A DNA stretch of 64,000 bases. Origin: Nannobrachium achirus. Its lineage: Eukaryota; Chordata; Actinopteri; Myctophiformes; Myctophidae. Numbering within the stretch: the stretch's first letter is position 1; every line of letters begins with the position of its first letter. Of this stretch, positions 5,539 through 57,696 are shown one piece after another. The notes below the pieces were generated by a model. It was not told the DNA's origin. It saw only the letters and a program-made list of their open reading frames with translations, and did not search any database. The stretch is from the NCBI GenBank assembly GCA_963921795.1, contig OY997659.1, forward strand, positions 54,234,311-54,298,310, in the 5' to 3' direction. The translations under genes were made by a program, and so were the position numbers.

Positions 5539-5539
5539 A

Positions 5540-6877
5540 ATGGACTCATTCAAGATGAGATGTTTGAAGGTGTTGCTGGTCCTTTGCTTTCTACAGAGCA
5601 CTGTATGTCAGCTCAGAGACCCTCTGAACCTACACATCTGCCATCATGAAGGCCTGTCATATGACAGAGAGGCCCTGCAGAAGACAGCAGCATCTGAAGA
5701 CGGCGTCCTGATGCTGAACTTCAAGGCTTATGGAAGGTTCTTTAACTTGAAGATGAAGAGGGACAGCAGCCCGTTGTCTCCACACCTCACGCTGGAGGCG
5801 CCCAATGCCAGCGCTCACATGTACACCGTAGAGGTCTTGGGTGAGAATGGCACCGTAACTCATGGCACTGTGATCGATGGCCGCTTCGAGGGCCTGATCC
5901 ACACGGGTCAAGGCACATACCATGTGGAACGTTCTGAGACCTACTTCAATGTGAGTGTTCCCCATCACTCTGTCATCTTTCATGAGAAGGACACCAGCTA
6001 TCCTCATAGTGGCTCCCAGGAGGGTGGCTGTGCTGACCACTCACTCTCTGTGGAGGAGACGGCGTCCCAGCCATCAGACCCGATTAAAACGAGGTGGTGC
6101 GGCATGTACCTCCAGGCTGACCACCTCTACTTGAGGAAACACAAGACAGAGGAGCAGGTCGCGAAAATGCTAAACGAAAACATGAAGTTCCTCAACAAAG
6201 TGTTTGACGGGGTCACTTTTGAGGAATTCCTGGGTGGATCAACGAAACTCCAATTTTATGTGAAAAAGATGACCATCTACGGAGATTCAAACAATGACTT
6301 CAAGGATGAGCGCATGAATGTAATGCAGGTTTTGGATGTCCTCTCAAAACAGAATCACGACGACTACTGCCTGGCCTATTTGTTCACCAGCAGAAGGTTT
6401 AAGAGGACAGGGTCGATTGGCGAAGCTAGTCTTGGGCAGCCGGAGGTAGAGGCGGGAATCTGCGCAAAGAACTCGATGTCGTATCCAAATGACCCAACCC
6501 GACCCCCATTGAAAGAACTTTGGTCTAAGAACACAGGCGTTGTTACTGACCTAAACAAATGGGGTCAACCTCTCAGACCTATAACCACACATATCAACTT
6601 TGCCCATAATATTGGACACAGCCTTGGCTCCCCACATGACGATGTGGTACATGACGTCTGCAACAAGCTTGGCAAACACAATGACGAATGCAATAAGATG
6701 AAGTATGACTCATTCATTATGTATTATGGAAACACACCAGGGAACCGGCCAAACAACATCTTGTACTCACCATGCAGCAAGTGCAGCATGTATACTGTGC
6801 TAAACGGCTCTAGGTTAGCAACTGGCGAATTAGGAGAAAGACCAAGAAGATGCTTAAGCTTCAATAAACCTCGTTAA
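5540..6877 (+). CDS. U1 ADAM10-like secreted pseudoprotease (intact)
   Basis: This is an uninterrupted 445-residue protein. The ATG at 5540 has a strong Kozak context (A at -3, G at +4) and is followed directly by a signal peptide, about residues 1-24 (core LKVLLVLCFLQSTVC). The ADAM10-type prodomain follows (DPLNLHICHHEGLSY, VIDGRFEGLI, HSVIFHEKD) with the cysteine-switch segment GGCADHS at Cys164. The metalloprotease domain starts near residue 187 and includes QNHDDYCLAY. The zinc motif is H356-N-I-G-H360-S-L-G-S-P-H366, so all three histidines are present but the catalytic glutamate is Asn357. A Met-turn methionine (394) follows. There is no RxK/RR furin site before the catalytic domain. 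The protein stops where ADAM10 would enter the disintegrin domain, so it has no EGF-like, transmembrane or cytoplasmic part. Four N-glycosylation sequons are visible. Vertebrate ADAM10 has many exons, so the single exon suggests a retrocopy. An inactive regulator or decoy role is inference. Confidence 0.9.
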   Translation: MDSFKMRCLKVLLVLCFLQSTVCQLRDPLNLHICHHEGLSYDREALQKTAASEDGVLMLNFKAYGRFFNLKMKRDSSPLSPHLTLEAPNASAHMYTVEVLGENGTVTHGTVIDGRFEGLIHTGQGTYHVERSETYFNVSVPHHSVIFHEKDTSYPHSGSQEGGCADHSLSVEETASQPSDPIKTRWCGMYLQADHLYLRKHKTEEQVAKMLNENMKFLNKVFDGVTFEEFLGGSTKLQFYVKKMTIYGDSNNDFKDERMNVMQVLDVLSKQNHDDYCLAYLFTSRRFKRTGSIGEASLGQPEVEAGICAKNSMSYPNDPTRPPLKELWSKNTGVVTDLNKWGQPLRPITTHINFAHNIGHSLGSPHDDVVHDVCNKLGKHNDECNKMKYDSFIMYYGNTPGNRPNNILYSPCSKCSMYTVLNGSRLATGELGERPRRCLSFNKPR

Positions 6878-7131
6878 ATACCTCTGTTAGTATTCTTTAA
6901 AACTAATAGAGATGAGACGGTTGTGTGTCCTTTTGGTAGCTTTATTGACATCCACTCCACCTCTCCTGAGTGAAATGTCTGGAGCTGGAGTCTGGTGCAA
7001 CGCACAGGTCCTGGACCTGGTGAGACGTAGGAGGGGCCCGGACAGGAGTCAATCCACAGAGCCTGGTCCTTCCTTGCGCCAGATTTCCTCTCCCAGTCTC
7101 GGCAGAGTAGTTCCAGAGTGGTGGAGTGAGT
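6878..7131 (+). other. U1 tail with a small signal-peptide-like ORF
   Basis: An ATG at 6912 opens a frame beginning MRRLCVLLVALLTSTPPLL, a plausible signal sequence, followed by an Arg-rich stretch. It continues past 7131 into the next head (to 7196 here). A canonical donor-like GTGAGA lies at 7020, so the start could be a first exon. I do not recognise the product. The AATAAA of the upstream gene (6863-6868) lies inside its last codons, so transcripts may end just here. Confidence 0.35.
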
Positions 7132-8629
7132 GGCCCTGTCTTTCCCTAATAGGACTGAGAGAGAGAGAGAGAGAGAAGTATAGAGCTAAGACTTAGCCAC
7201 CGCTCACTTCAAACTTGCTTTGATTTTTTTTTTTTCAAAATGAAAATGCATTTCAACACGTGAGTTGTGTCATTAAATCAGATCTGTCTTTCACTCACTG
7301 TTTGACTGCAATGCATGCATGCAAGATGCACTGCATGGCTGCCCTGCCCCCCCCCCCCCCCTCCCTCTTGACTTGCCTTCACCAATAGCGTTGTCAGGTC
7401 ACAGGTGCATCAGGCTTGTGCCACTTGTTTTTTTTTTTGTGCCGATAATAAAGTATAATTAAAGCAAGACGGAGGCACGCCGTCTCAGGTGATCTTGAGC
7501 ACCGTGGGACACCGCTGAGTGAGCGGCAGCGACCGAGTGGCCGTGTCGAGCGGTGCGAAAGTTGCATGATGAGCCGACTCAGACAGATGGTGACTCTTAG
7601 TTGTGACCCAAGTGGTGCTGTTGTGCCACCGCTCACTTCAAACTTGGTTTGACTTTTTTTTCCTCCAAAATGAATTAGTTTGTTGGTGACACACACGCAC
7701 CACCGCTCACTTCAAACTTTGTTTGATTTTTTTTTTTTTCAAAATGAATATGCATTTCAACACGTGTGTTTTGTCATATTAAATCAGATCTTTCTTTCAC
7801 TCACTGTGTGACTGCAATGCATGCATGCAAGATGCACTGCATGGCTGCCCTGCCCCCCCCCCCTCTCCCTCTTGACTTGCCTTCACCAATAGCGTTGTCA
7901 GGTCACAGGTGCATCAGGCTTGTGCCACTTGTTTTTTTTTTGTGCCGATAAAGTATAATTAAAGCATGACGGAGGCACGCCGTCTCAGGTGATCTTGAGC
8001 CTGATGAGCCGACTCAGCGCCGCAGACAGATGGTGACTTAGTTGTGACCCAAGTGGTGCTGTTGTGCCACCGCTCACTTCAAACTTGGTTTGATTTTTTT
8101 CTTCTTAAATGAATTAATTTGTAGCCACCCGTGGACATCCGCTTCAGTGGCGTTTATCTCACACTGACGTCTGTTCAGGAGATTTACCATGAGCTTCATG
8201 AGAAATGGCTTCAGTAGCGTTTATCTCACACTGACGTCTGTTCAGGAGATTTACCTTGAGCTTCATGAGAAAGTGGAAGTGTGAGGAGAGCGTGAACGGA
8301 TGCCTGGTGGCGTGTCAACAAGCCAGTGGACCCAAATCTTCTAATGGATTAATACTGGGACCATGGACATCGTCTGAGACTTTTTTAATGTATTATATAA
8401 TTTAAATGCCAGAAAAAAGGTAATTTAATCAATTTAATAAAATGTATTAAAAATATTTATAGAAAAACCTGGCAGGGAATGTATTAACTATTGGTAACCA
8501 AGCATTATAGGCTACGTCCTACATGTTGTAGTCTTTCTTAGTCTCTTGTGATTTTATCATTTAACCCTTTCTTTTATTTCATTTCAGCTGTTTGCAGATC
8601 TTTGTTCCATTGTTATCCTTGGCTTTTAT
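7132..8629. repeat. U2 head, non-coding
   Basis: Same organisation as the U1 head, with the CCACCGCTCACTTCAAAC motif near 7197, 7627, 7702 and 8067. Differences are mainly in GA, poly-C and poly-T run lengths. No gene is seen. Confidence 0.7.
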
Positions 8630-10411
8630 TTATTTTATTTTTTGGGTGTGTGTGTCCCAGTTTGCACGTGACCTCTGGGAGAAAGCCCAGCCCTGTAACT
8701 CACGGTGTGGCGTGGCGCCAGTCTGCGAGGAAGACGGCGATGATCTCGGGGCTGATGTCCTTGGAGACTCCTCAGGGTCACCTCCCCCACTCACAGGCTG
8801 CTCTGGGGCCAAGTCTGGGTGAAGTGACGGCTGGGGAGGGGCCGCCTCTGCTGGTCGGAGGTCATTCCTGTCGATATGTGGTCCCATCCACGTGGACCAG
8901 ATAGGACCGGAGTCCCAGCTGCTGCACACACACGCCTCTCCTCCATGGGCCGTCCTGTCCCCTGGGAGTGTCTTCATCCTTATGGGCTGCATGGCCGACG
9001 CTCAGCTCCGGCAGATCCTTGGCAGACCCGTCATAGACCAGCTTTGTTGCTCCATGCTTCGCTCTCAGCTTGTCTGGAATTCCCGTAACGACTTCAGGCA
9101 TCAGCAGCTGGTCGGCCACAGGGAGAAGGGATCTCAGCCTCCGTGACATGAGCCGCTGTGCTGGGCTGCAATGCATGTTCTCAGTGGGCGTGTTTCGCCA
9201 ATGCAAAATGGCCTTCCAGGGGTCCTCTTTGGCACGGTCAGCCTTCCTGCACAGGCTCTTTATGATCTTCACTGCTGGCTCTGCTTTGTCATTAGCCTTT
9301 GGGTGTCTGGGTGAGGACATGACATGCTCGAAAAGAAACCCCACTCCCTCGCGAACAACCGGAACTCCCCACCAGCAAACTGGACTCCACAGTCTGAAAT
9401 GGTCCGGTACGCCATGGCGTGCAAACTGTGCCTTGCACCGCCGGATAGTGGTGTCCACAGACAGGTCAGGGAGCAGGTCTATCTCCCAAAAGTCTGAGTA
9501 GTGTTCCACCAAAAGCAAGAAGTTCTGCGCTGCATAGCTGTAAAGATCCATGCTCACCAGCTGCCAGGGACATGTGGGGAGCGGGTGCGACATCATAGTC
9601 TCCCTCTGTTGTTCGTGTGCATACTCATTACTCCTTGTGTTCTGGCCAGCCCTCCAGCACCACAGACTTCAGCATTTGAAGACACACGTCCTCCACAGTG
9701 TGTGCTGGAATCTGTGCCAGGCGTTGGCTGCTGACGTTTAGGTAGTCCGCCTGCTGAATGGCCGTGGCATCACACTGCTCCTGCTGAAGTGTGAGGAGCA
9801 TGCTCTGAAGGCGCTTTGGCGCACTGAGGAGAGGCTTCTTGTCAGGGTCGGCCTTGAGGCCGTGGAAGCGGACCTCCTTCACTCCAAATGGCATCTTTTT
9901 CAGGCCCAGTCTCAGCTTCACTTCTCTGCACCTGTCCATCAAAGCAATGAGGTTCGTGTCATGGTCTCGATTGGCCTCCTCGTCTGTGTCCCCACCGGCC
10001 AACAATAAGGATATCGTCGGCTATAGGCTCGATCCCTGTCAGGCCCACTAGCAGCTCATGCTGCTTCCTCTGGTACAACTCCGGAGCAACTGACACACCG
10101 AAAGAGAGCTTCAGACAACGTTTTCTACCCCACTGTGTCCAAAATGTTGTCATCAGGCTGCTCTCTTCATCCAAGCGGCACTGCAGGAACGCATCGCGTG
10201 CATCCACCAGTGTGAATATATGTGCCTTATAGGCAGCTTATACAGCACGTCATCCAATGTGGGCATCAGGTAATGGGACCGTTTCAGAGCTCGTTGAGGG
10301 GCTTTGAGTCAATACAAAGTGTCAATTTATCTGGCTTTTTCACTATGACCAGGTTGCTAATCCAGTCTGTGGGTCGAGTGACTGTGGTTAAGTGCCCATC
10401 CTCTTCGTATC

Positions 10412-10463
<52 letters not shown>

Positions 10464-10723
10464 CCTTTATTATCCCAAGGGGGAAATTCAAGCTGCACTT
10501 TAACAGCTGCCTTGAGGGCCACTGGAACATTCCTGGGAGCACACTGAACCAGTGCCATGGTAGTGTCCAGCTCAAAGTGAACGGGCACAACATTTCATGG
10601 TAGGTGCTGACAAGATGCTCTGTAGTCAGGACCCCCTTCCTACAGTGCTCCACCCACTCATTCTACTGTACTTCTGCACTATGGATGCCCGGTGAAGTTC
10701 GTTAACATTCTCCGGTAGTTCCA
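8630..10723 (-). mobile_element. U2 gypsy pol remnant
   Basis: Same internally deleted pol as U1: RT core 10207-9959, thumb 10005-9800, integrase 9596-8862, tail to 8630. RNase H and the zinc finger are missing. The GATA tract is expanded to 13 repeats (10412-10463). Confidence 0.9.
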
Positions 10724-11966
10724 TGATGGAATGAGGGACAAGGTCATGATGGGTGGATTAGAATCTGCCCCCTTCAGAGTAGGTACTGGAGTGAGACAGG
10801 GATGTGTTCTCACACCGGTCCTGTTTAACATCTTCCTCCTGTGTGTAACAACACTACTTCACAAGGAAAAGGAGGGGGGGAGTGGGGTGACCGGATGGGA
10901 ACCTCTTCAACATCAGGAGGCTCCAAGCTACAACAAAGCTCCAGTCTGTAGGCATACTGGAACTCCCTTGTGGCCACACACGCCAGAATCACTGCAGGCC
11001 ACTCTGGCAGCCGCTGTGAGAGCCTACAGCAGAACGGGACTGTCTGTAAACATATCAAAGACAGAAGTCCTCTGCCAGTGGTCTTCAGAACCTCCACAGA
11101 CACCACCAGCCTTCTCTGTTGCAGATTCACCTCTTAACATCGTTCCACATTTCAAGCACCTTGGGAGCATCCTGTCAGAAGACTGCAGCATCGATCAGGA
11201 CATCCAAAACAGGATCAAACAGTCCTCGTCCTCCTTTGGAAAAGGTTCTTCAGCAACAGCAACCTCCACCTCCACACACAAATAGCAGTCTACAAGGCAA
11301 TATGCATATCCACCCTCCTATACGGTTGTGAGTCATGGACCATCTACTCCCGGCATCTGAAGATGCTCGAGGCATTCCACATCAAATGCCTCCAACGCAT
11401 CCTGAGTGCCAAGACTGTATATCACACTGCAGAACCAGCTGCAGGAGCATAGAGGCCACGCCCACGATTATGCAACACCAGCTAAGATGGCTTGGACATG
11501 ATTACATGTCCAAGCCATCTTAGCTGGCGTTGGCCCAGGTGGAGTTGGCCATATTACAAGGCAGGCGACTGGATGCCATCCAGTCGCCTGCCTTGTAATA
11601 TGGCCAACTCCACCTGGGCCAACGCTCTGCAGGGGGACCCAAGAAGAGGCTGAAGGACCAACTAAAGACCTCCCTTAAAAAGTGTGGAATCGAGCCTGCT
11701 TCCCTTGAAGACACCGCTGCTTCTCCCGGTGTGGACTCTGCCAACAAGGAGTCCAACTGGCAGAGGAGAACAGAATAACACATCGCCTGGCAAAAAGGCA
11801 GAGGAGGAAGTTGGCCAAACCTGCACCTGCACCATCGGGTCAGATCTTCACTTGCCCTGTCTGTGACAGGCAGTGTGCATGGACTATAAGGTCATCAAAG
11901 GACCCACACATTATGGCAGAAGTCATGATAGGCCACGATGGACTAACTTAAGCAAGTAAGTAAGTG
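10724..11966 (+). mobile_element. U2 LINE RT remnant
   Basis: RT-containing open stretch 10731-11285 with one Glu-to-Gly difference from U1. The [FY]ADD box is missing. It ends in the AAGT tail. Confidence 0.85.
11478..11624. repeat. U2 paired palindromes
   Basis: Identical in structure to U1: 23-bp arms from 11478 and 48-bp arms from 11528. Confidence 0.9.
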
Positions 11967-12433
11967 GTATGTATAAGGGCCACGAGAGGGGCTGTCCATG
12001 CCCATAGCCAATCAGATGGGCATAAATGGGCACATGCATATATTCTTTTGTTAATCCTCTGGAGATTGGAGATGAATGATTTCATTTGGTGGGGAGGAAG
12101 TGTTCATTACACATTGTTCTGAAACAGTTTTATTTCCAGTGGTGGAAGAACTACTCAACTTCTTTACCGTGTGACTTTCCTCTTCTATACCCTCCCTGTA
12201 TTTGAACCCGGGTTCCCACGCACTTGCCAGCCTGCTTGCTCAGGGGAGGAATTATAATTATATAATTATGCTCGGGATAAGATAAGATGAGGAACTCTGG
12301 AAATCTCAGTTGGAAGATGGATGGAGTGACCTCAATAAAGATGCAAGATGGACTATCCACTCACTACTTATTAGAGTAGCATCGTTTTGTATTCTAGCAC
12401 CGCTCCTTCAATGAAATTAACGTAATGCCTATT
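11967..12433. other. U2 linker, no gene
   Basis: Counterpart of the U1 linker. The short AT repeat near 12250 differs by a few bases. Nothing else is seen. Confidence 0.6.
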
Positions 12434-12692
12434 TCTTCATCTGAGGTCACAATTACTGCGTCAGCAATGGGCTTACGTCATCGATCAATGAGCTTACGTC
12501 ATCGATCAATGCGTTTACGTCATCGGCCCGTAGTTTAAAATGAGATGCCTTTCAACGTAAGTCTCAGTGCCGTTATAGTTATATGGTTGTTTATCTTAAG
12601 GATAATTATTATTCAGTTTCATCACTTGTAACTTCAAGAGCAGATCAAAGCACATTCAGCTGAATCAAACTCTCAGTTTGATTCAGCTGAAA
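12434..12692 (+). promoter_or_regulatory. U2 promoter and start-codon hairpin
   Basis: TTACGTCA sites start at 12473, 12494 and 12515 and TTTAAAA at 12534. The 17-bp hairpin is at 12655-12691. All are unchanged although the gene behind them is broken. Confidence 0.6.
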
Positions 12693-13976
12693 ATGGACTC
12701 ATTCAAGATGAGATGTTTGAAGGTGTTGCTGGTCCTTTGCTTTCTACAGAGCACTGTATGTCAGCTCAGAGACCCTCTGAACCTACACATCTGCCATCAT
12801 GAAGGCCTGTCATATGACAGAGAGGCCCTGCAGAAGACAGCAGCATCTGAAGACGGCGTCCTGATGCTGAACTTCAAGGCTTATGGAAGGTTCTTTAACT
12901 TGAAGATGAAGAGGGACAGCAGCCCGTTGTCTCCACACCTCACGCTGGAGGCGCGCCCAATGCCAGCGCTCACATGTACACCGTAGAGGTCTTGGGTGAG
13001 AATGGCACCGTAACTCATGGCACTGTGATCGATGGCCGCTTCGAGGGCCTGATCCACACGGGTCAAGGCACATACCATGTGGAACGTTCTGAGACCTACT
13101 TCAATGTGAGTGTTCCCCATCACTCTGTCATCTTTCATGAGAAGGACACCAGCTATCCTCATAGTGGCTCCCAGGAGGGTGGCTGTGCTGACCACTCACT
13201 CTCTGTGGAGGAGACGGCGTCCCAGCCATCAGACCCGATTAAAACGAGGTGGTGCGGCATGTACCTCCAGGCTGACCACCTCTACTTGAGGAAACACAAG
13301 ACAGAGGAGCAGGTCGCGAAAATGCTAAACGAAAACATGAAGTTCCTCAACAAAGTGTTTGACGGGGTCACTTTTGAGGAATTCCTGGGTGGATCAACGA
13401 AACTCCAATTTTATGTGAAAAAGATGACCATCTACGGAGATTCAAACAATGACTTCAAGGATGAGCGCATGAATGTAATGCAGGTTTTGGATGTCCTCTC
13501 AAAACAGAATCACGACGACTACTGCCTGGCCTATTTGTTCACCAGCAGAGGCGGGAATCTGCGCAAAGAACTCGATGTCGTATCCAAATGACCCAACCCG
13601 ACCCCCATTGAAAGAACTTTGGTCTAAGAACACAGGCGTTGTTACTGACCTAAACAAATGGGGTCAACCTCTCAGACCTATAACCACACATATCAACTTT
13701 GCCCATAATATTGGACACAGCCTTGGCTCCCCACATGACGATGTGGTACATGACGTCTGCAACAAGCTTGGCAAACACAATGACGAATGCAATAAGATGA
13801 AGTATGACTCATTCATTATGTATTATGGAAACACACCAGGGAACCGGCCAAACAACATCTTGTACTCACCATGCAGCAAGTGCAGCATGTATACTGTGCT
13901 AAACGGCTCTAGGTTAGCAACTGGCGAATTAGGAGAAAGACCAAGAAGATGCTTAAGCTTCAATAAACCTTGTTAA
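12693..13976 (+). pseudogene. U2 ADAM10-like gene, two frame-changing indels
   Basis: A 2-bp GC insertion at about 12952 shifts the frame in the prodomain (intact units read GGAGGCGCCC here, this one GGAGGCGCGCCC). A stop follows at 12984-12986. A second lesion near 13549 is a 56-bp deletion between short AGAGG-type matches, removing the segment that encodes RRFKRTGSIGEASLGQPEVE in U1. The two changes add up to -54, so the zinc-motif region (HNIGHSLGSPH) and the C-terminus return to the original frame. The early stop still prevents a full-length product. Confidence 0.85.
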
Positions 13977-14230
13977 ATACCTCTGTTAGTATTCTTTAAA
14001 ACTAATAGAGATGAGACGGTTGTGTGTCCTTTTGGTAGCTTTATTGACATCCACTCCACCTCTCCTGAGTGAAATGTCTGGAGCTGGAGTCTGGTGCAAC
14101 GCACAGGTCCTGGACCTGGTAAGACGTAGGAGGGGCCCGGACAGGAGTCAATCCACAGAGCCTGGTCCTTCCTTGCGCCAGATTTCCTCTCCCAGTCTCG
14201 GCAGAGTAGTTCCAGAGTGGTGGAGTGAGT
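13977..14230 (+). other. U2 tail with signal-peptide-like ORF
   Basis: Frame from 14011. The putative donor reads GTAAGA here instead of GTGAGA, which keeps it splice-competent. The frame runs on to 14466 through the next head. Confidence 0.3.
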
Positions 14231-15722
14231 GGCCCTGTCTTTCCCTAATAGGACTGAGAGAGAGAGAGAGAAGTATAGAGCTAAGACTTAGCCACCGCTC
14301 ACTTCAAACTTGCTTTGATTTTTTTTTTTTTCAAAACGAAAATGCATTTCAACACGTGAGTTGTGTAATTAAATCAGATCTGTCTTTCACTCACTGTTTG
14401 ACTGCAATGCATGCATGCAAGATGCACTGCATGGCTGCCCTGCCTCCCCCCCCCCCTCCCTCTTGACTTGCCTTCACCAATAGCGTTGTCAAGTCACAGG
14501 TGCATCAGGCTTGTGCCACTTGTTTTTTTTTTTGTGCCGATAAAGTATAATTAAAGCAAGACGGAGGCACGCCGTCTCAGGTGATCTTGAGCACTGTGGG
14601 ACACCGCTGAGTGAGCGGCAGCGACCGAGTGGCCGTGTCGAGCGGTGCGAAAGTTGCATGATGAGCCGACTCAGACAGATGGTGACTCTTAGTTGTGACC
14701 CAAGTGGTGCTGTTGTGCCACCGCTCACTTCAAACTTGGTTTGACTTTTTTTTCCTCCAAAATGAATTAGTTTGTTGGTGACACACACGCACCACCGCTC
14801 ACTTCAAACTTGGTTTGATTTTTTTTTTTTTTCAAAATGAATATGCATTTCAACACGTGTGTTGTGTCATATTAAATCAGATCTGCCTTTCACTCACTGT
14901 GACTGCAATGCATGCATGCAAGATGCACTGCATGGCTGCCCTGCCCCCCCCCCCCCTCTCCCTCTTGACTTGCCTTCACCAATAGCGTTGTCAGGTCACA
15001 GGTGCATCAGGCTTGTGCCACTTGTTTTTTTTTTGTGCCGATAAAGTATAATTAAAGCATGACGGAGGCACGCCGTCTCAGGTGATCTTGAGCCTGATGA
15101 GCCGACTCAGCGCCGCAGACAGATGGTGACTTAGTTGTGACCCAAGTGGTGCTGTTGTGCCACCGCTCACTTCAAACTTGGTTTGATTTTTTTCTTCTTA
15201 AATGAATTAATTTGTAGCCACCCGTGGACATCCGCTTCAGTGGCGTTTATCTCACACTGACGTCTGTTCAGGAGATTTACCATGAGCTTCATGAGAAATG
15301 GCTTCAGTAGCGTTTATCTCACACTGACGTCTGTTCAGGAGATTTACCATGAGCTTCATGAGAAAGTGGAAGTGTGAGGAGAGCGTGAACGGATGCCTGG
15401 TGGCGTGTCAACAAGCCAGTGGACCCAAATCTTCTAATGGATTAATACTGGGACCATGGACATCGTCTGAGACTTTTTTAATGTATTATATTATTTAAAT
15501 GCCAGAAAAAAGGTAATTTAATCAATTTAATAAAATGTATTAAAAATATTTATAGAAAAACCTGGCAGGGAATGTATTAACTATTGGTAACCAAGCATTA
15601 TAGGCTACGTCCTACATGTTGTAGTCTTTCTTAGTCTCTTGTGATTTTATCATTTAACCCTTTCTTTTATTTCATTTCAGCTGTTTGCAGATCTTTGTTC
15701 CATTGTTATCCTTGGCTTTTAT
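14231..15722. repeat. U3 head, non-coding
   Basis: Same blocks as U1, with CCACCGCTCACTTCAAAC near 14292, 14718, 14792 and 15160. No gene is seen. Confidence 0.7.
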
Positions 15723-19029: not shown

Positions 19030-19495
19030 GGTATGTATAAGGGCCACGAGAGGGGCTGTCCATGCCCATAGCCAATCAGATGGGCATAAATGGGCACATG
19101 CATATATTCTTTTGTTAATCCTCTGGAGATTGGAGATGAATGATTTCATTTGGTGGGGAGGAAGTGTTCATTACACATTGTTCTGAAACAGTTTTCTTTC
19201 CAGTGGTGGAAGAACTACTCAACTTCTTTACCGTGTGACTTTCCTCTTCTATACCCTCCCTGTATTTGAACCCGGGTTCCCACGCACTTGCCAGCCTGCT
19301 TGCTCAGGGGAGGAATTATAATTATAATTATGCTCGGGATAAGATAAGATGAGGAACTCTGGAAATCTCAGTTGGAAGATGGATGGAGTGACCTCAATAA
19401 AGATGCAAGATGGACTATCCACTCACTACTTATTAGAGTAGCATCGTTTTGTATTCTAGCACCGCTCCTTCAATGAAATTAACGTAATGCCTATT
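19030..19495. other. U3 linker, no gene
   Basis: Counterpart of the U1 linker. Nothing additional is seen. Confidence 0.6.
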
Positions 19496-37986: not shown

Positions 37987-38046
<60 letters not shown>

Positions 38047-41448: not shown

Positions 41449-41452
41449 TTAA

Positions 41453-43399: not shown

Positions 43400-43653
43400 A
43401 TACCTCTGTTAGTATTCTTTAAAACTAATAGAGATGAGACGGTTGTGTGTCCTTTTGGTAGCTTTATTGACATCCACTCCACCTCTCCTGAGTGAAATGT
43501 CTGGAGCTGGAGTCTGGTGCAACGCACAGGTCCTGGACCTGGTGAGACGTAGGAGGGGCCCGGACAGGAGTCAATCCACAGAGCCTGGTCCTTCCTTGCG
43601 CCATATTTCCTCTCCCAGTCTCGGCAGAGTAGTTCCAGAGTGGTGGAGTGAGT
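43400..43653 (+). other. U5 tail with signal-peptide-like ORF
   Basis: Frame from 43434, 186 codons. One Gln-to-His difference (SLRHISS), shared with U6. Confidence 0.3.
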
Positions 43654-45355: not shown

Positions 45356-47940
45356 TTATTTTTTGGGTGTGTGTGTCCCAGTTTGCACGTGACCTCTGGG
45401 AGAAAGCCCAGCCCTGTAGCAGACTGGCGTGGCGCCAGTCTGCGAGGAAGACGGCGATGATCTCGGGGCTGATGTCCTTGGAGACTCCTCAGGGTCACCT
45501 CCCCCACTCACAGGCTGCTCTGGGGCCAAGTCTGGCTGAAGTGACGGCTGGGGAGGGGCCGCCTCTGCTGGTCGGAGGTCATTCCTGTTGTGTCGATACG
45601 TGGTCCCATCCACGTGGACCAGATAGGACCAGAGTCCCAGCTGCTGCACACACACGCCTCTCCTCCATGGGCCGTCCTGTCCCCCGGGAGTGTCTTCATC
45701 CTTATGGGCTGCATGGCCGCCGCTCAGCTCCGGCAGATCCTTGACAGACCCGTCATAGACCAGCTCTGCTGCTCCATGCTTCGCTCTCAGTCAGGAATTC
45801 CCGTAACGACTTCAGGCATCAGCAGCTGGTCGGCCACAGGGAGAAGGGATCTCAGCCTCCGTGACATGAGCCGATGTGCTGGGCTGCAATGCATGCCCTC
45901 AGTGGGCGTGTTTCGCCAATGCAAAATGGCCTTCCAGGGATCCTCTTCGGCACGGCACAGGCTCTTTATGATCTTCACTGCTGGCTCTGCTTTGCCATTA
46001 GCCTTTGGGTGTCTGGGTGAGGACATGACATGCTCGAAAAGAAACCCCACTCCCTCGCGAACAACCGGAACTCCCCACCAGCGAACTGGACTCCACAATC
46101 TGAAATGGCCCGGTCCGGTACGCCATGGCGTGCAAACTGTGCCTTGCACCGCCGGATAGTGGTGTCCGCAGACAGGTCAGGGAGCAGGTCTATCTCCCAA
46201 AAGTCTGAGTAGTGTTTCACCACAAGCAAGAAGTTCTGCGCTGCATAGCTGTAAAGATCCATGCTCACCAGCTGCCAGGGACGTGTGGGGAGCGGGTGCG
46301 ACATCATAGTCTCCCTCTGTTGTTCGTGTGCATACTCATTACACACAGAGCACTGCTGTACATAGTCTTTGAGCTCACCTTGCATGCCGGGCCAGTTAAG
46401 TGTATCACAAGCTTGTCTGTAGCACGCGTCCCCCCACCCCACGTGGTTGTAGTGGATCCGTCTCAGCATTGCCTGACGCAGAGCTTTTTGGTTGATGACG
46501 CACTGACTTCTGGAGAGCACGCCATCCCGTACACTTTTATTTCATCTCTGACAGCCCAGTAGTCCCTGACGGCCACGGGGGTCTCCTCCTTGTGTTCTGG
46601 CCAGCCCTCCAGCACCACTGACTTCAGCATTTGAAGACACACGTCCTCCTCAGTGTGTGCTGGAATCTGTGCCAGGCGTTTAGGTAGTCCGCCTGCTGAA
46701 TGGCCGTGGCATCACACTGCTCCTGCTGCATGCTGCAGACCATCTCTCGTCGGTACAGTGTGTCGGTTCTCTGTGGCGGGGTAGTGGCTCTGCTGAGCGT
46801 GTCACTTATGTACATTTCAGGGCCTGGCTCTTATGCCACCACAAGGCAGTATTTTGAAGTGTGAGCAGCATGCTCTGAAGGCGCTGTGGCGCACTGAGGT
46901 GAGGCTTTGTGAAAATAGACTCCCTTGGGCGGTGGGCGGTCTCTGCAGTGACATCACCCCTCCCATTGCTTTGATGGACAGTCGTGACCCGCGTAGAGCG
47001 TAGTTTGGCTCTGTTTGGGTCAGTGCACGGGAGGAGAATGCAACAGGCTGTTCCCCATGAAGCAAGCAGCAGCCCAGACCCGCCTGACTGGCGTCGCTCT
47101 GAATGGTGACCGGTTTGCTGACATCATAATATCTTAGGACTTCACGCCACCATGAAGGAAAGGCGCTGGTCACGGCGTTGCCATGTTTGGGCTGCCAGTG
47201 CCACGGCACGTCTTGGTCCAGCAGTCTCCTCAGTGGTTCACACACCTCTGACAAGCGTGGCATGAATCTGGACAGGTAGTTCACAAACCCGACCGCTGGA
47301 CCACCTCTGCGTCAGTGGGGTTCGGCATGTCCAGAACCGCCCTGACCTTGTCAGGGTCGACCTTGAGGCCCTCCGTGGACAGCACATGGCCGTGGAAGCG
47401 GACCTCCTTCACTCCAAATGGCATCTTTTTTCAGGCCCAGTCTCAGCTTCACTTCTCTGCACCTGTCCATCAAAGCAATGAGGTTTGTGTCATGGTCTTG
47501 ATCGGCCTCCTCGTCTGTGTCCCACCGGCCAACAATAAGGATATCGTCGGCTATAGGCTCGATCCCCGTCAAGCCAGCTAGCAGCTCATGCTGCTTCCTC
47601 TGGTACAACTCCGGAGCAACTGACACACCGAAAGAGAGCTTCAGCCAACGTTTTCTACCCCACTGTGTCCAAAATGTTGTCATCAGGCTGCTCTCTTCAT
47701 CCAAGCGGCACTGCAGGAACGCATCGTGTGCATCCACTAGTGTGAATATATGTGCCTTAGGCAGCTTATACAGCACGTCATCCAATGTGGGCATCAGGTA
47801 ATGGGACCGTTCCAGAGCTCGGTTGAGGGGCTTTGAGTCAATACAAAGTGTCAATTTATCTGGCTTTTTCACTATGACCAGGTTGCTAATCCAGTCTGTG
47901 GGTCGAGTGACTGTGGTTAAGTGCCCATCCTCTTCGTATC

Positions 47941-47976
<36 letters not shown>

Positions 47977-48239
47977 CCTTTATTATCCCAAGGGCGAAAT
48001 TCAAGCTGCACTTTAACAGCTGCCTTGAGGGCCACTGGAACATTCCTGGGAGCACACTGAACCAGTGCCACGGTGCTGTCCAGCTCAAAGTGAACGGGCA
48101 CAACATTTCATGGTAGGTGCTGACAAGATGCTCTGTAGTCAGGACCCCCTTCCTGCAGTGCTCCACCCACTCATTCTACTACTGTACTTCTGCACTATGG
48201 ATGCCCGGTGAAGTTCGTTAACATCCTCCGGTAGTTCCA
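45356..48239 (-). mobile_element. U6 gypsy pol remnant, most complete copy
   Basis: This copy keeps parts deleted elsewhere. RT lies at 48166-47351 in one long frame (NLVIVKKPDKLTLCIDSKPL, LVDAHDAFLQC, IADDILIVG), with only a GATA insertion (nine repeats, 47941-47976). RNase H is at 47284-46817 (TIQSDASQAGLGCCLL, FSSRALTQTE). The integrase zinc-finger region is at 46520-46330 (HYNHVGWGDACYRQACDTL, CSVCNEY). The integrase core is at 46320-45787, with ISDCGVQFAGGEF and NGKAEPAVKIIK, so the DDE acidic residues are visible. The tail runs to 45356 with no 5-bp deletion near 45592. Several frameshifts still make it defective. Confidence 0.9.
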
Positions 48240-49419
48240 TGATGGAATGAGGGATAAGGTCATGATGGGTGGATTAGAATCTGCCCCCTTCAGAGTAGGT
48301 ACTGGAGTGAGACAGGGATGTGTTCTCACACCGGTCCTGTTTAACATCTTCCTCCTGTGTATAACAACATTAATTCACAAGGAAAAGGAGGAGGGGAGTG
48401 GGGTGACCGGATGGGAACCTCTTCAACATCAGGAGGCTCCAAGCTACAACAAAGCTCCAGTCTGTAGGCATACTGGAACTCCCTTGTGGCCACACACGCC
48501 AGAGTCACTGCAGGCCACTCTGGCAGCCGCTGTGAGAGCCTACAGCAGAACGGGACTGTCTGTAAACATATCAAAGACAGAAGTCCTCTGCCAGTGGTCT
48601 TCAGAACCTCCACAGACACCACCAGCCTTCTCTGTTGCAGATTCATCTTTTAACATCGTTCCACATTTCAAGCACCTTGGAAGCATCCTGTCAGAAGACT
48701 GCAGCATCGATCACGACATCCAAAACAGGATCAAACAGGCCTTATCCTCCTTTGGAAAAGGGTCTTCAGCAACAGCAACCTCCACCTCCACACACAAATA
48801 GCAGTCTACAAGGCAATATGCATATCCACCCTCCTATACGGTTGTGAGTCTTGGACCATCTACTCCCGGCATCTGAAGATGCTCGAGGCATTCCACATCA
48901 AATGCCTCCAACGCATCCTAAAGGTGGCAAGACTGTATATCACACTGCAGAACCAGCTGCAGGAGCATAGAGGCCACGCCCACGATTATGCAACACCAGC
49001 TAAGATGGCTTGGACATGTAAACAGGATGCCATCCAGTCGCCTGCCTTGTAATATGGCCAACTCCACCTGGGCCAACGCTCTGCAGGGGGACCGAAGAAG
49101 AGGCTGAAGGACCAACTAAAGACCTCCCTTAAAAAGTGTGGAATGGAGCCTGCTTCCCTTGAAGATGCCGCTGCTTCTCCCGGTGGGGACTCTGCCAACA
49201 AGGAGTCCAACTGGCAGAGGAGAACAGAACAACACAACGCCTGGCAAAAAGGCAGAGGAGGAAGTTGGCCAAACCTGCACCTGCACCATCGGGTCAGATC
49301 TTCACTTGCCCTGTCTGTGACAGGCAGTGTGCATGGACTATATGGTCATCAAAGGACCCACACATTATGGCAGAAGTCATGATAGGCCACGATGGACTAC
49401 CTTAAGCAAGTAAGTAAGT
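48240..49419 (+). mobile_element. U6 LINE RT remnant without palindromes
   Basis: RT open stretch 48247-48801. The site at 49005-49025 reads directly from ...GGCTTGGACATG through TAAACAG to GATGCCATCCAG, the ancestral form. It ends in the C2H2-like HQRTHT trace (to 49382) and the AAGT tail. Confidence 0.85.
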
Positions 49420-49908
49420 TGTATGTATAAGGGCCACGAGAGGGGCTGTCCATGCCCATAGCCAATCAGATGGGCATAAATGGGCATATGCATATATTCT
49501 TTTGTTAATCCTCTGGAGATTGGAGATGAATGATTTCATTTGGTGGGGAGGAAGTGTTCATTACACATTGTTCTGAAACAGTTTTCTTTCCAGTGGTGGA
49601 AGAACTACTCAACTTCTTTACCGTGTTACTTTCCTCTTCTATACCCTCCCTGTATTTGAACCCGGGTTCCCGCGCAAGTGCTGACCTTTTTACCATTGAG
49701 CTAATAGAGCCAGCCTGCTTGCTCAGGGGAGGAATTATAATTATGCGCGGGATAAGATAAGATGAGGAACTCTGGAAATCTCAGTTGGAAGATGGATGGA
49801 GTGACCTCAATAAAGATGCAAGATGGACTATCCACTCACTACTTATTAGAGTAGCATCGTTTTGTATTCTAGCACCGCTCCTTCAATGAAATTAACGTAA
49901 TGCCTATT
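49420..49908. other. U6 linker, no gene
   Basis: Includes the tRNA-like segment at 49647-49712 (minus strand), with A and B boxes as in U5 and one substitution (CGCGCAAGTG). Confidence 0.6.
49647..49712 (-). mobile_element. tRNA-derived SINE-like head (U6)
   Basis: Same as the U5 copy, with the A box TAGCTCAATGG and B box GGGTTCAAATAC on the minus strand. Confidence 0.55.
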
Positions 49909-50167
49909 TCTTCATCTGAGGTCACAATTACTGCGTCAGCAATGGACTTACGTCATCGATCAATGAGCTTACGTCATCGATCAATGCGTTTACGTCATCG
50001 GCCCGTAGTTTAAAATGAGATGCCTTTCAACGTAAGTCTCAGTGCCGTTATAGTTATATGGTTGTTTATCTTAAGGATAATTATTATTCAGTTTCATCAC
50101 TTGTAACTTCAAGAGCAGATCAAAGCACATTCAGCTGAATCAAACTCTCAGTTTGATTCAGCTGAAA
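49909..50167 (+). promoter_or_regulatory. U6 promoter and start-codon hairpin
   Basis: TTACGTCA sites start at 49948, 49969 and 49990 and TTTAAAA at 50009. The hairpin is at 50130-50166. Confidence 0.6.
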
Positions 50168-51488
50168 ATGGACTCATTCAAGATGAGATGTTTGAAGGTG
50201 TTGCTGGTCCTTTGCTTTCTACAGAGCACTGTATGTCAGCTCAGAGACCCTCTGAACCTACACATCTGCCATCATGAAGGCCTGTCATATGACAGAGAGG
50301 CCCTGCAGAAGACAGCAGCATCTGAAGACGGCGTCCTGATGCTGAACTTCAAGGCTTATGGAAGGTTCTTTAACTTGAAGATGAAGAGGGACAGCAGCCC
50401 GTTGTCTCCACACCTCACGCTGGAGGCGCCCAATGCCAGCGCTCACATGTACACCGTAGAGGTCTTGGGTGAGAATGGCACCGTAACTCATGGCACTGTG
50501 ATCGATGGCCGCTTCGAGGGCCTGATCCACACAGGTCAAGGCACATACCATGTGGAACGTTCTGAGACCTACTTCAATGTGAGTGTTCCCCATCACTCTG
50601 TCATCTTTCATGAGAAGGACACCAGCTATCCTCATAGTGGCTCCCAGGAGGGTGGCTGTGCTGACCACTCACTCTCTGTGGAGGAGACGGCGTCCCAGCC
50701 ATCAGACCCGATTAAAACGAGGTGGTGCGGCATGTACCTCCAGGCTGACCACCTCTACTTGAGGAAACACAAGACAGAGGAGCAGGTCACGAAAATGCTA
50801 AACGAAAACATGAAGTTCCTCAACAAAGTGTTTGACGGGGTCACTTTTGAGGAATTCCTGGGTGGATCAACGAAACTCCAATTTTATGTGAAAAAGATGA
50901 CCATCTAGGGAGATTCAAACAATGACTTCAAGGATGAGCGCATGAATGTAATGCAGGTTTTGGATGTCCTCTGACGACTACTGCCTGGCCTATTTGTTCA
51001 CCAGCAGAAGGTTTAAGAGGACAGGGTCGATTGGCGAAGCTAGTCTTGGGCAGCCGGAGGTAGAGGCGGGAATCTGCGCAAAGAACTCGATGTCGTATCC
51101 AAATGACCCAACCCGACCCCCATTGAAAGAACTTTGGTCTAAGAACACAGGCGTTGTTACTGACCTAAACAAATATGGTCAAAATATCAGACCTATAACC
51201 ACACATATCAACTTTGCCCATAATATTGGACACAGCCTTGGCTCCCCACATGACGATGTCGTACATGACGTCTGCAACAAGCTTGGCAAACACAATGATG
51301 AATGCAATAAGAAGGAAGACTCATTCATTATGTATTATAGAACCACACCAGGGAACCGGCCAAACAACATCTTGTACTCACCATGCAGCAAGTGCAGCAT
51401 GTATACTGTGCTAAACGGCTCTAGGTTAGCAACTGGCGAATTAGGAGAAAGACCAAGAAGATGCTTAAGCTTCAATAAACCTCGTTAA
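50168..51488 (+). pseudogene. U6 ADAM10-like gene, nonsense plus frameshift
   Basis: It is intact through the prodomain and first third of the protease domain, then TAC becomes TAG at 50906-50908 (MTI-stop where others read MTIYGDSN). A 14-bp deletion at about 50973 (CCTCTGACGAC) shifts the frame further. A 3-bp loss occurs near 51313. HNIGHSLGSPH is still legible downstream, as is GQNIRP shared with U5. A truncated secreted prodomain product of about 246 residues is the most that could be made. Confidence 0.9.
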
Positions 51489-51742
51489 ATACCTCTGTTA
51501 GTATTCTTTAAAAGTAATAGAGATGAGACGGTTGTGTGTCCTTTTGGTAGCTTTATTGACATCCACTCCACCTCTCCTGAGTGAAATGTCTGGAGCTGGA
51601 GTCTGGTGCAACGCACAGGTCCTGGACCTGGTGAGACGTAGGAGGGGCCCGGACAGGAGTCAATCCACAGAGCCTGGTCCTTCCTTGCGCCATATTTCCT
51701 CTCCCAGTCTCGGCAGAGTAGTTCCAGAGTGGTGGAGTGAGT
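51489..51742 (+). other. U6 tail with signal-peptide-like ORF
   Basis: Frame from 51523, 89 codons, ended early by a different GA-tract length. Confidence 0.3.
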
Positions 51743-53237
51743 GGCCCTGTCTTTCCCTAATAGGACTGAGAGAGAGAGAGAGAGAAGTATAGAGCTAAGA
51801 CTTAGCCACCACTCACTTCAAACTTGCTTTGAAAATGCATTTCAACACGTGAGTTGTGTCATTAAATCAGATCTGTCTTTCACTCACTGTTTGACTGCAA
51901 TGCATGCATGCAAGATGCACTGCAAGGCTGCCCTGCCCCCGCCCCCCCCCCCTCCCTCTTGACTTGCCTTCACCAATAGCGTTGTCAGGTCACAGGTGCA
52001 TCAGGCTTGTGCCACTTGTTTTTTTTTTGTGCCGATAAAGTATAATTAAAGCATGACGGAGGCACGCCGTCTCAGGTGATCTTGAGCACCGTGGGACACC
52101 GCTGAGTGAGCGGCAGCGACCGAGTGGCCGTGTCGAGCCGTGCGAAAGTTGCATGATGAGCCGACTCAGACAGATGGTGACTCTTAGTTGTGACCCAAGT
52201 GGTGCTGGTGTGCCACCGCTCACTTCAAACTTGGTTTGATTTCTTTTCCCCCCAAAATGAATTAGTTTGTTGGTGACACACACACGCACTACCGCTCACT
52301 TCAAACTTGGTTTGATTTTCTTTTTTTCAAAATGAATATGCATTTCAACACGTGTGTTGTGTCATTAAATCAGATCTGTCTTTCACTCACTGTGTGACTG
52401 CAATGCATGCATGCAAGATGCACTGCATGGCTGCCCCCCCCCCCCCCCCCCCCCCTATTGACTTGCCTTCACCAATAGCGTTGTCAGGTCACAGGTGCAT
52501 CAGGCTTGTGCCACTTGTTTTTCCGCCACCACGAACAACTTTTTTTTGTGCCGATAAAGTATAATTAAAGCATGACGGAGGCACGCCGTCTCAGGTGATC
52601 TTGAGCCTGATGAGCCGACTCAGCGCCGCAGACAGATGGTGACTTAGTTGTGACCCAAGTGGTGCTGTTGTGCCACCGCTCACTTCAAACTTGGTTTGAT
52701 TTTTTTTTTCTTAAATGAATTAATTTGTAGCCACTCGTGGACATCCGCTTCAGTAGCGTTTATCTCACACTGACGTCTGTTTAGGAGATTTACCATGAGC
52801 TTCATGAGAAATGGATTCAGTAGCGTTTATCTCACACTGACGTCTGTTCAGGAGATTTACCATGAGCTTCATGAGAAAGTGGAAGTGTGAGGAGAGGGTG
52901 AACGGATGCCTGGTGGCGTGTCAACAAGCCAGTTGACCCAAATCTTTTAATGGATTAATACTGGGACCATGGACATCGTCTGAGACTTTTTTTTATGTAT
53001 TATATTATTTAAATGCCAGAAAAAAAGGTAATTTAATCAATTTAATAAAATTAATTAAAAATATTTATAGAAAAACCTGGCAGGGAATGTATTAGCTATT
53101 GGTAACCAAGCATTATAGGCTACATCCTACATGTTGTAGTCTTTCTTAGTCTCTTGTGATTTTATCATTTAACCCTTTCTTTTATTTCATTTCAGCTGCT
53201 TGCGGGCCTTTGTTCCAGTGTTATCCTTGGCTTTTAT
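51743..53237. repeat. U7 head, non-coding
   Basis: Full head with both internal copies, more diverged than U1-U4. A CCGCCACCACGAACAA-type insertion interrupts the T run near 52523, and the poly-C tract near 52434 is long. No gene is seen. Confidence 0.7.
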
Positions 53238-54358
53238 TTATTTTCTTTTTTTTGGGTGTGTGTCCCAGTTCGAACATGACCTCTGGGAGAAAGCCCAGCC
53301 CTGTAACTCACGGCGTGGCGTGGCGCCAGTCTGCGAGGAAGACGGCGATGATCTCGGGGCTGATGTCCTTGGAGACTCCTCAGGGTCACCTCCCCCACTC
53401 ACAGGCTGCTCTGGGGCCAAGTCTGGGTGAAGTGACGGCTGGGGAGGGGCCGCCTCTGCTGGTCGGAGGTCATTCCTGTTGTGTCGATACGTGGTCCCAT
53501 CCACGTGGACCAGATAGGACCAGAGTCCCAGCTGCTGCACACACACGCCTCTCTTCCATGGGCCGTCCTGTCCCCCGGGAGTGTCTTCATCCTTATGGGC
53601 TGCATGGCCGCCGCTCAGCTCCGGCAGATCCTTGGCAGACCCGTCATAGACCAGCTTTGCTGCTCCATGCAGGGGTCCTCTTTGGCACGGTCAGTCTTCC
53701 TGCACAGGCTCTTTATGATCTTCACTGCTGGCTCTGCTTTGCCATTAGCCTTTGGGTGTCTGGGTGAGGACATGACATGCTCGAAAAGAAACCCCACTCC
53801 CTCGCGAACAACCGGAACTCCCCACCAGCGAACTGGACTCTACAGTCTGAAATGGCCTGGTCTGGTACGCCATGGCGTGCAAACTGTGCCTTGCACCGCC
53901 GGATAGTGGTGTCCACAGACAGGTCAGGGAGCAGCTCTATCTCGCCTGCCAGTGCTTCCATTATTACTCATTGCTTTGATGGACAGTCGTGACCCGCGTA
54001 GAGCGTAGTTTGGCTCTGTTTGGGTCAGTGCACGGGAGGAGAATGCAACAGGCTGTTCCCCATGAAGCAAGCAGCAGCCCAGACCCGCCTGACTGGCGTC
54101 GCTCTGAATGGTGACCGGTTTGCTGACATCATAATATCTTAGGACTTCACGCCACCATGAAGGAAAGGCGCTGGTCACAGCGTTGCCATGTTTGGGCTGC
54201 CAGTGCCACGGCACGTCTTGGTCCAGCAGTCTCCTCAGTGGTTCACACACCTCTGACAAGCGTGGCATGAACCTGGACAGATAGTTCACAAACCCGACAT
54301 ACCGCTGGACCCCCTCTGCGTCAGTGGGGTTCGGCATGTCCAGAACCGCACTGACCTT
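53238..54358 (-). mobile_element. U7 gypsy pol remnant, RNase H fused to integrase
   Basis: RNase H at 54380-53960 (NYLSRFMPRLSEVCEPLRRL, IQSDASQAGLG) is joined near 53955 to the integrase core (53961-53722). Another deletion near 53670 follows, then the C-terminal tail 53546-53238 in the undisturbed frame. RT and the zinc finger are gone, and the right edge runs straight into the ADAM10-like promoter. Confidence 0.85.
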
Positions 54359-54656
54359 GCACCGCTCCTTCAATGAAATTAATGTACTGCCTATTTCTTC
54401 ATCTGAGGTCACAATTACTGCGTCAGCAATGAGCTTACTTCATCGATCAATGAGCTTACGTCATCGATCAATGCGTTTACGTCATCTGCACGTAGTTTAA
54501 AATGAGATGCCTTTCAACGTAAGTCTCAGAGCCGTTAAAGCTTATATCAGTGTTACTTTTGGAGGATAATTTCTATTCAGTTTCATCACTTGTAACTTCA
54601 AGAGCAGATCAAAGCACATTCAGCTGAATCAAACTCTCAGTTTGATTCAGCTGAAA
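54359..54656 (+). promoter_or_regulatory. U7 promoter and start-codon hairpin
   Basis: The first octamer is TTACTTCA (54435); the other two are TTACGTCA at 54456 and 54477. TTTAAAA is at 54496. The leader is diverged (TATCAGTGTTACTTTTGGAG) yet the hairpin (54619-54655) is identical to the other units. Confidence 0.6.
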
Positions 54657-56017
54657 ATGGACTCATTCAAGATGAGATGTTTGAAGGTGTTGCTGGTCCT
54701 TTGCTTTCTACAGAGCACTGTATGTCAGCTCAGAGACCCTCTGAACCTACACATCTGCCATCATGAAGGCCTGTCATATGACAGAGAGGCCCTGCAGAAG
54801 ACAGCAGCATCTGAAGACGGCGTCCTGATGCTGAACTTCAAGGCTTATGGAAGGATATTTAACTTGAAGATGAAGAGGGACAGCAGCCTGTTGTCTCCAC
54901 ACCTCACGCTGGAGGCGCCCAATGCCAGCGCTCACATTTACACCGGAGAGGTCTTGGGTGAGAATGGCACCGTAACCCATGGCACTGTGATCGATGGCCG
55001 CTTCGAGGGCCTGATCCACACGGGTCAAGGCACATACCATGTGGAACGTTCCGAGACCTACTTCAATGTGAGTGTTCCCCATCACTCTGTCATCTTTCAT
55101 GAGAAGGACACCAGCTATCCTCATAGTGGCTCCCAGGAGGGTGGCTGTGCTGACCACTCACTCTCTGTGGAGGAGACGGCGTCCCAGCCATCAGACCCGA
55201 TTAAAACGAGGTGGTGCGGCATGTACCTCCAGGCTGACCACCTCTACTTGAGGAAACACAAGACACAGGAGGAGGTCGCGAAAATGCGAAAAAGCGAAAA
55301 CATGAAGTTCCTCAACCAAGTGTTTGACGGGGTCACTTTTGAGGAATTCCTGGGTGGATCAACGAAACTCCAATTTTATGTGAAAAAGATGACCATCTAC
55401 GGAGATTCAAACAATGACTTCAAGGATGAGCGCATGAATGTAATGCATGTTTTGGATGTCCTCTCAAAACAGAATCACGACGACTACTGCCTGGCCTGTT
55501 CACCAGCAGAAGGTTTAAAGTGACAGGGTCGATTGGCGAAGCTAGTCTTGGGCAGCCGGAGGTAGAGGCGGGAATCTGCGCAAAGAACTCGATGTCCTAT
55601 CCAAATGACCAAACCCGACCCCCATTGAAAGAACTTTGGTCTAAGAACACAGGCGTTGTTACTGACCTAAACAAATATGGTCAACCTCTCAGACCTATAA
55701 CCACACATATCAACTTTGCCCATAATATTGGACACAGCCTTGGCTCCCCACATGACGATGTAGTACATGACGTCTGCAACAAGCTTGGCAAACACAATGA
55801 CGAATGCAATACGATTAAGTATGACTCATTCATTATGTATTATGGAAACACACCAGGGAACCGGCCAAACAACATCTTGTACTCACCATGCAGCACGTGC
55901 AGCATGTATACTGTGCTAAACGGCTCTAGGTTAGCAACCGGCGAATTAGGAGAAAGACCAAGAAGATGCTTAAGCTTCAATAAACCTTGTGTAAATACCT
56001 CTGTTGGTATTCTTTAA
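54657..56017 (+). pseudogene. U7 ADAM10-like gene, 4-bp deletion frameshift
   Basis: This is the most diverged copy, for example HIYTGEVLG where the others have HMYTVEVLG, and MRKSENMKFLNQVF. A 4-bp deletion at about 55497 (GGCCTGTTCACC) shifts the frame, and a stop follows at 55521-55523 after about 288 residues. The rest (55520-56017) stays open in the new frame and keeps HNIGHSLGSPH. Two extra bases before the usual stop would extend the C-terminus to NTSVGIL. Confidence 0.9.

Positions 56018-57636: not shown

Positions 57637-57696
<60 letters not shown>

Follow-up and report, generated by a model that had tools for sequence, protein, structure and literature searches.

What can a gene family keep of ADAM10, a deeply conserved sheddase, once catalysis is lost? 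The question is raised by a stretch of 64,000 nucleotides of the fish Nannobrachium achirus (contig OY997659.1, here C22:54234311-54298310), called the window below, in which a single-exon ADAM10-like gene is repeated in tandem. The genes have lost the catalytic residue, and their promoter, leader and prodomain form a cassette that recurs on C22 in front of otherwise different bodies. We read them, at a probability of roughly 0.5, as belonging to a lineage-specific family of secreted or glycosylphosphatidylinositol (GPI)-anchored pseudoproteases with a constant leader and a variable body, probably serving in binding.

The cassette runs from ~260 bases 5′ of the ATG to codon 179, ~0.8 kb in all, and lies on C22. 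Its DNA is ~90–98% identical across gene types that are otherwise different, with a common 3′ edge at codon 179 and divergence beyond it. The 263-base promoter piece (window positions 5283-5545) occurs in at least 34 places of the 1.66 Gb assembly, 34 of 34 directly upstream of a cassette gene. Conversely, it precedes 34 of 35 cassettes and is lacking only at the last copy of a second array, array B. Behind the cassette stand metalloprotease folds (with HN, HQ, HA and one HE motif), dead trypsin-like domains in pairs or, in one gene, an orphan body.

The front and the body have different histories. Between the first window copy (copy 1) and a single gene on C22, L010, synonymous divergence reaches 0.63 across the body, against 0.034 across the prodomain (Fisher test, 2e-15). 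Therefore, the front half has been recently exchanged or replaced. Purifying selection was rejected as the source of the cassette identity, since the synonymous sites are equally alike, so exchange is needed. In the single genes, the 3′ edge of the cassette falls at a 51-base-pair minisatellite linker, which is a plausible exchange site. L010 and another single gene, L009, are 89% identical over a stretch including the linker.

The window array itself agrees with what the preliminary description reported. Seven direct-tandem copies, head to tail on the plus strand, are found by blastn, and an eighth adjoins the window on the left at C22:54232717 to complete array A. Three of them (copies 1, 3 and 4) are indeed intact frames of 445 codons only a few residues apart. 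The features of the array and of copy 1 are as follows.

1..57937, no strand: tandem-array DNA, with gene units mostly ~7 kb apart, simple repeats and Ty3/gypsy-like remnants (by eye)
5283..5539, plus strand: promoter part of the cassette, copy 1, TTACGTCA, with sites resembling the cAMP response element (CRE) at 5320, 5341 and 5362 and TTTAAAA at 5381
5540..6877, plus strand: copy 1, intact 445-codon ADAM10-like pseudoprotease frame
5540..6076, plus strand: leader and ADAM10-type prodomain of copy 1, codons 1-179, the coding part of the shared cassette
6092..6814, plus strand: metalloprotease-fold body of copy 1, codons 185-425, with HNIGHSLGSPHD at codons 356-367
6863..6868, plus strand: candidate poly(A) signal AATAAA, six bases before the copy 1 stop and overlapping the coding end
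12693..13976, plus strand: copy 2, broken by a 2-nucleotide insertion and a 56-nucleotide deletion
19755..21092, plus strand: copy 3, intact, 445 codons, F287L
26462..27799, plus strand: copy 4, intact, 445 codons, P78Q, R445H and one silent change
42489..43399, plus strand: copy 5, broken by a 427-nucleotide deletion
50168..51488, plus strand: copy 6, broken by a stop at codon 247 and deletions of 14 and 3 nucleotides
54657..55993, plus strand: copy 7, broken by a 3-nucleotide insertion and a 4-nucleotide deletion

Over 1338 bases, copies 1, 3 and 4 show 1 to 4 differences from one another. Constraint was rejected as the explanation of this likeness, since the flanks match nearly as well (2–8 differences per ~1500 bases upstream and 3–6 per ~500 downstream). 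Self-alignments of the array of at least 700 bases range from 92.8% to 99.6% in identity. Residues 344-345 of copies 5 and 6 are those of array B, a sign of either exchange between the arrays or shared ancestry. Each intact copy is one open frame with no introns seen, judged from the DNA alone. Scans of the window with Rfam (gathering threshold) and for tRNAs came out empty.

Copy 1 encodes a leader, an ADAM10-type prodomain and an M12B reprolysin fold and then stops, which supports the secreted layout of the preliminary description; the hydrophobic leader, like the GPI-like signals below, was judged by eye. By sequence only, Pfam assigns the fold to M12B reprolysin (1.5e-19). In the PDB, ADAM10 is the best match (5.3e-31) and ADAM17 the next, with no ADAM9 among the matches at 0.001. 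Against human ADAM10, identity is 49% in the prodomain (72/146) and 36% in the protease part (80/223). The prodomain retains the GGCADHS cysteine.

The sequence supports a pseudoprotease, as had been proposed. The zinc motif reads HNIGHSLGSPH in 7/7 window copies, with the three His kept and the catalytic Glu replaced by Asn. The same motif stands in each frame of array B and of two short contigs, C145 and C487, that covers its position. A furin site at the boundary is absent from copy 1, where RxxR occurs only at residues 286 and 434; for human ADAM10, furin-type sites are described at 48-51 and 211-215 (PMC9863580). The ADAM10 tail from the disintegrin domain onward finds nothing better than E 2 in the window by tblastn. 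A missed downstream exon with a disintegrin domain was rejected on this ground.

A protein search of the whole genome yields 63 matching pieces, counting exons and broken copies. Array B lies at C22:52.047-52.129 Mb, 2.1 Mb from the window array, and has 19 copies, mostly 3.85 kb apart. Sixteen of the 19 are open: 14 are 445-codon frames, nine of these identical, and the two end copies have 441 and 472 codons. The three other copies are broken. C145 and C487 hold one open copy each. Moreover, six single genes on C22 share the front half of the arrays.

L009: 568 residues, HQVGHSVGAPHD, HQ motif
L010: 651 residues, HEVAHSVGAPHD, Ser/Thr stalk, hydrophobic GPI-like end
L043: HAVGHSMGSLDD, HA motif, third His replaced by Asp, GPI-like end as in L010
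L044, 103-1569, minus strand: cassette running in frame into an Asp/Glu/Gln-rich orphan body
L045 and L046: two trypsin-like stretches each (Pfam)

L010 is the one cassette gene, among those seen, with a complete HExxHxxGxxHD motif. Its GPI-like tail is 100% identical to that of L043 over 80 nucleotides, and the L043 body has no PDB match at 0.01. The L044 body has no Pfam match over the cut-off, nothing else in the genome matches it at E 0.01, and it is possibly built from local non-coding DNA. Judged by eye, both L045 and L046 have their active Ser motif replaced, and the His motif of L045 has likewise been replaced.

Trypsin-like bodies resembling that of L045 (35–40% identity) are also found at C22:46.7, 52.2, 52.4 (two) and 54.6 Mb, C10:14.96 Mb, C17:44.57 Mb and C18:14.99 Mb. 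At these eight places, apparently an intronless second family, no ADAM10 cassette was found, and 6/8 are in open frames of 655–720 residues. Since such bodies occur elsewhere without the cassette, the L045-type fusion joins two families.

Where did the family come from? Single-exon ADAM10 genes with active-site motifs are present at full length on C23 and on C16, and C11 has two shortened ones. The full-length genes have disintegrin and ADAM10 cysteine-rich domains and a transmembrane segment (by eye). A disintegrin domain, a cysteine-rich part and a membrane anchor are found in the intronless genes L001 and L005. Intron-bearing loci on C7, C11 and C1 match the window protein exon by exon, with best exon identities of 68%, 56% and, at the third and divergent locus, 43%. 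The multi-exon C1 locus may be the known ADAM10-like gene, which was set aside as the source because the exon identities appear to favor the C7 and C11 loci.

A phylogeny with ADAM10 and an ADAM17-like row, as suggested in the preliminary description, places the C22 genes in one clade by their protease part (support 100/99), and human ADAM10 clusters with the remaining intronless genes. This tree has 12 rows without a fish ADAM10 or ADAM9, and long branches lead to L043 and to the ADAM17-like row. The family is intronless and ADAM10-derived, in all likelihood lineage-specific, and probably originated as a retrocopy.

Two further loci stand apart from these genes. L021 (C22:16.992 Mb), far from both arrays, is an isolated, degenerate ADAM10-like body interrupted by stops; some 150 of its residues align with the window protein at 65% identity. 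L002 (751-2823, minus strand; C3:14.097 Mb) is a single-exon ADAM17-like gene of 690 residues, HELGHNFGADHD, with disintegrin and ADAM17 membrane-proximal domains, so that the genome also contains an intronless ADAM17 copy with an open frame.

The promoters carry a common element. L001, L005 and L004, on three chromosomes, share a CRE-bearing promoter block, whose score is reached by 0/500 shuffles in each of the three pairs. CRE-like octamers are found within 500 bases of the ATG in 18/18 family genes with at least 300 upstream bases, namely the seven window copies, array B, C145, C487, L009, L010, L043, L044, L001, L003, L004 and L005, of which the array copies are not independent; L045 and L046 were left out, their upstream stretches being too short. 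None occurs in 756 bases upstream of the ADAM17-like L002. As a negative control, comparison with the L002 promoter gives scores reached by 411/500 shuffles for copy 1 and 399/500 for L005. CREB/CREM-driven expression would be a fair guess from the CRE sites, though a weaker one than the reading of how the protein works given below, and germ-line tissue may serve as a first guess for its place.

Selection leaves different traces at different depths. Among the seven window copies, we counted by hand 31 nonsynonymous and 12 synonymous distinct changes, leaving out one nonsense change, against ~1053:282 sites. The changes within the array are near neutral and the window array alone bears no sign of selection, so the comparison of units that the preliminary description had suggested does not speak for constraint.

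Over the older divergence, the ratio of nonsynonymous to synonymous rates (omega) is 0.45 between the bodies of copy 1 and L010 (p 0.0002), and 0.41 between the full-length genes L001 and L005. In a neutral simulation, a 240-codon body stayed open in 0/1000 runs at 0.315 substitutions per site and in 13/1000 at 0.2. The lineage leading to the arrays was therefore long coding, though inactive now. By these sequence measures the ancestor is constrained, while array A by itself could be decaying now.

The cassette and the body also appear to differ. The cassette shows 21 nonsynonymous and 16 synonymous changes among nine sequences, L045 left out, with a P of 0.005–0.035 for a nonsynonymous deficit, which points to weak purifying selection. 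The array bodies show 29 to 4 among 11 haplotypes or copies, the broken copies left out, and the two counts differ (Fisher test, 0.007). The bodies of L009 and L010 give an omega of 4.1 (p 0.0017), one of 8 body pairs. These figures are a hint, not proof, of diversifying selection on the body.

How would such a family work? On this reading the window holds one of the two tandem arrays built from a shortened, ADAM10-derived member without catalysis, and recent exchange has homogenized the cassette in front of old and different bodies. Because copy 1 has no boundary RxxR, the prodomain would be retained rather than removed. Leader and prodomain may then fold the body and carry it through the secretory pathway, under one promoter. 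The product would be soluble from the arrays or GPI-anchored from two genes, and would bind rather than cleave. No longer needed for proteolysis, the body would be the diversifying part and bind something.

A more ambitious reading is tentative, and we hold it with less confidence than the family assignment. The ADAM10 cassette would be in the course of being copied along C22 to stand before bodies of two unrelated clans, M12B and S1, and an orphan body, giving combinatorial secreted or GPI-anchored dead proteases. Exchange would keep the front uniform, selection for binding would drive the bodies apart, and the two arrays would be dosage amplifications of a single successful combination. By likeness, the setting may be an arms race, either reproductive or between host and parasite.

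Several results weigh against the binding family. The excess of 29:4 in the array bodies has a P of 0.04–0.14 depending on the assumed transition bias, and it includes several multi-base codon changes, possibly single events; the changes are not independent. In the arrays alone, codons 1-179 (15:8) and codons 180-445 (29:4) differ with a Fisher value of 0.054. For L009 against L010, simple Fisher tests on slightly differing sets of columns reach no more than 0.028 and 0.046. When copy 1 is compared with array B or with C145 and C487, omega is 2.1–2.8 with p 0.26–0.40 (against array B alone, 2.1 and 0.29).

The remaining ones concern the promoter and the genes themselves. The window promoter compared with L001, L003, L004 and L005 has scores reached by 43–459 of 500 shuffles, and its link to the others goes through L010, itself borderline (4–6/500). 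Both trypsin-like fusions are damaged, by one in-frame leader stop in L045 and a frame break after the linker in L046. Finally, five of the eight array A copies are broken and the changes inside the array look neutral.

This last point equally serves the best of the alternatives, that the array is a decaying by-product of tandem amplification in transposon-rich DNA from which nothing useful is made. The similar identity of coding and flanking DNA fits it too, as do the integrase-like and other transposon-like frames within the units. We consider it doubtful, although it deserves more weight than the other alternatives. Mere decay does not explain that 16/19 array B copies are open, that the promoter is kept together with the cassette, that nonsynonymous changes in the cassette are too few, and that the body is open with an omega of 0.45 against L010 over an old divergence.

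Another alternative, raised in the preliminary description, is a prodomain-type inhibitor, an abundant uncleaved ADAM10 prodomain acting in trans on ADAM10. Inhibition is conceivable because the recombinant ADAM10 prodomain is described as a potent competitive inhibitor of ADAM10 (PMC9863580, citing Moss 2007). The prodomain is also the most ADAM10-like part of the protein, it keeps the GGCADHS cysteine, and the selection on the cassette is mildly purifying. Nevertheless, half of its aligned residues are unlike human ADAM10 and the attached metalloprotease fold would presumably compete for it. Moreover, the identical prodomain type is joined to the trypsin-like and orphan bodies, so a shared leader or chaperone fits better and the inhibitor is unlikely.

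In the ADAM10–Tspan15 structure, TspanC8 tetraspanins reportedly bind the disintegrin and cysteine-rich parts of ADAM10. A tetraspanin decoy, also raised earlier, would be a secreted rival of ADAM10 for its TspanC8 partners. It has descent from ADAM10 in its favor but is highly improbable because the array genes have neither of these parts (by tblastn in the window) and the product has no anchor. TspanC8s are speculated to work through the cysteine-rich region (PMC8268256).

The DNA between the gene copies holds other frames, those of integrase and reverse-transcriptase type being named by eye. A Helitron lies in the gap of copies 4 and 5 (31470-35210) with an open frame of 1246 residues matching Helitron_like_N and PIF1 helicase; ahead of it, at 30393-31283, is a 296-residue frame with a repeated Gln/Glu-rich motif. 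A 244-residue integrase-like frame without a Pfam match recurs at four places on the left side of the array (1737-2471, 8862-9596, 15955-16689 and 22663-23397, minus strand). A Ty3/gypsy-type reverse-transcriptase-like frame is at 47351-48166 (minus strand). The right edge of the array is marked by simple and minisatellite repeats at 57640-57700 and 58100-58310, and by a G+C change from ~51% to 39%.

How does the family compare with known systems? With ADAM10 itself it shares the GGCADHS prodomain, the metalloprotease fold, the IMY Met-turn and the best PDB match. It differs in having no catalytic Glu, boundary furin site, disintegrin domain, cysteine-rich part, transmembrane part, tail or visible introns.

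An ADAM10-like paralogue that is 43% identical to human ADAM10 is described in Xenopus, and zebrafish and a small number of mammals have homologues of it (PMC3055250). A teleost adam10-like gene is described as adjoining the lpl genes (PMC12111056), and a 2007 zebrafish survey names ADAM10a and ADAM10b for ADAM10 (PMC1867822). The Xenopus and zebrafish genes are likewise ADAM10 paralogues, whereas the window family is intronless, truncated and, by best exon identity, nearer the C7 and C11 loci.

The Group I testicular ADAMs of amniotes are described as intronless, retroposed from Adam9 or an Adam9-like gene, tandemly duplicated and in part pseudogenized (PMC4550289). The window genes are also intronless and tandemly duplicated. 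They differ in being derived from ADAM10, in being secreted or GPI-like by layout, and in sharing their promoter–prodomain cassette with other folds.

Hatching enzymes belong to the astacin family. Their teleost genes are described as intronless metalloprotease genes that occur at several loci and have a promoter in common (PMC6385490). These retrocopies are thus a precedent for intronless copies that keep their promoter, and L001, L005 and L004 are alike in this. Unlike the window proteins, hatching enzymes are active, and the sections of that paper available to us report no body swapping.

The REST seminal-vesicle genes are described as having a constant leader and unrelated or fast-changing bodies at one locus (PMC7556508; PMC3209443). 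The C22 family has the same combination of a conserved leader, here together with the promoter, and differing bodies. In REST genes the leader is a separate exon, whereas the C22 family has a single exon with the whole prodomain and mostly protease-fold bodies. Hence, intronless tandem ADAMs, ADAM10-like paralogues and constant-leader families are all known, while the open-licence literature that we searched gave no account of an ADAM10 cassette fused to inactive bodies from two protease clans.

ADAM10 relatives that have no catalysis, activation site or anchor and yet keep the prodomain would show which part of ADAM10 is re-usable. The replacement of the catalytic Glu by Asn, Gln or Ala beside one member with the full motif would be a natural experiment on the purpose of a pseudoprotease. 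The same promoter and leader before unrelated folds within a single exon would make a clear case of building new secreted genes by cassette exchange. If transcribed, the C22 family would supply candidate recognition proteins of fish that evolve fast.

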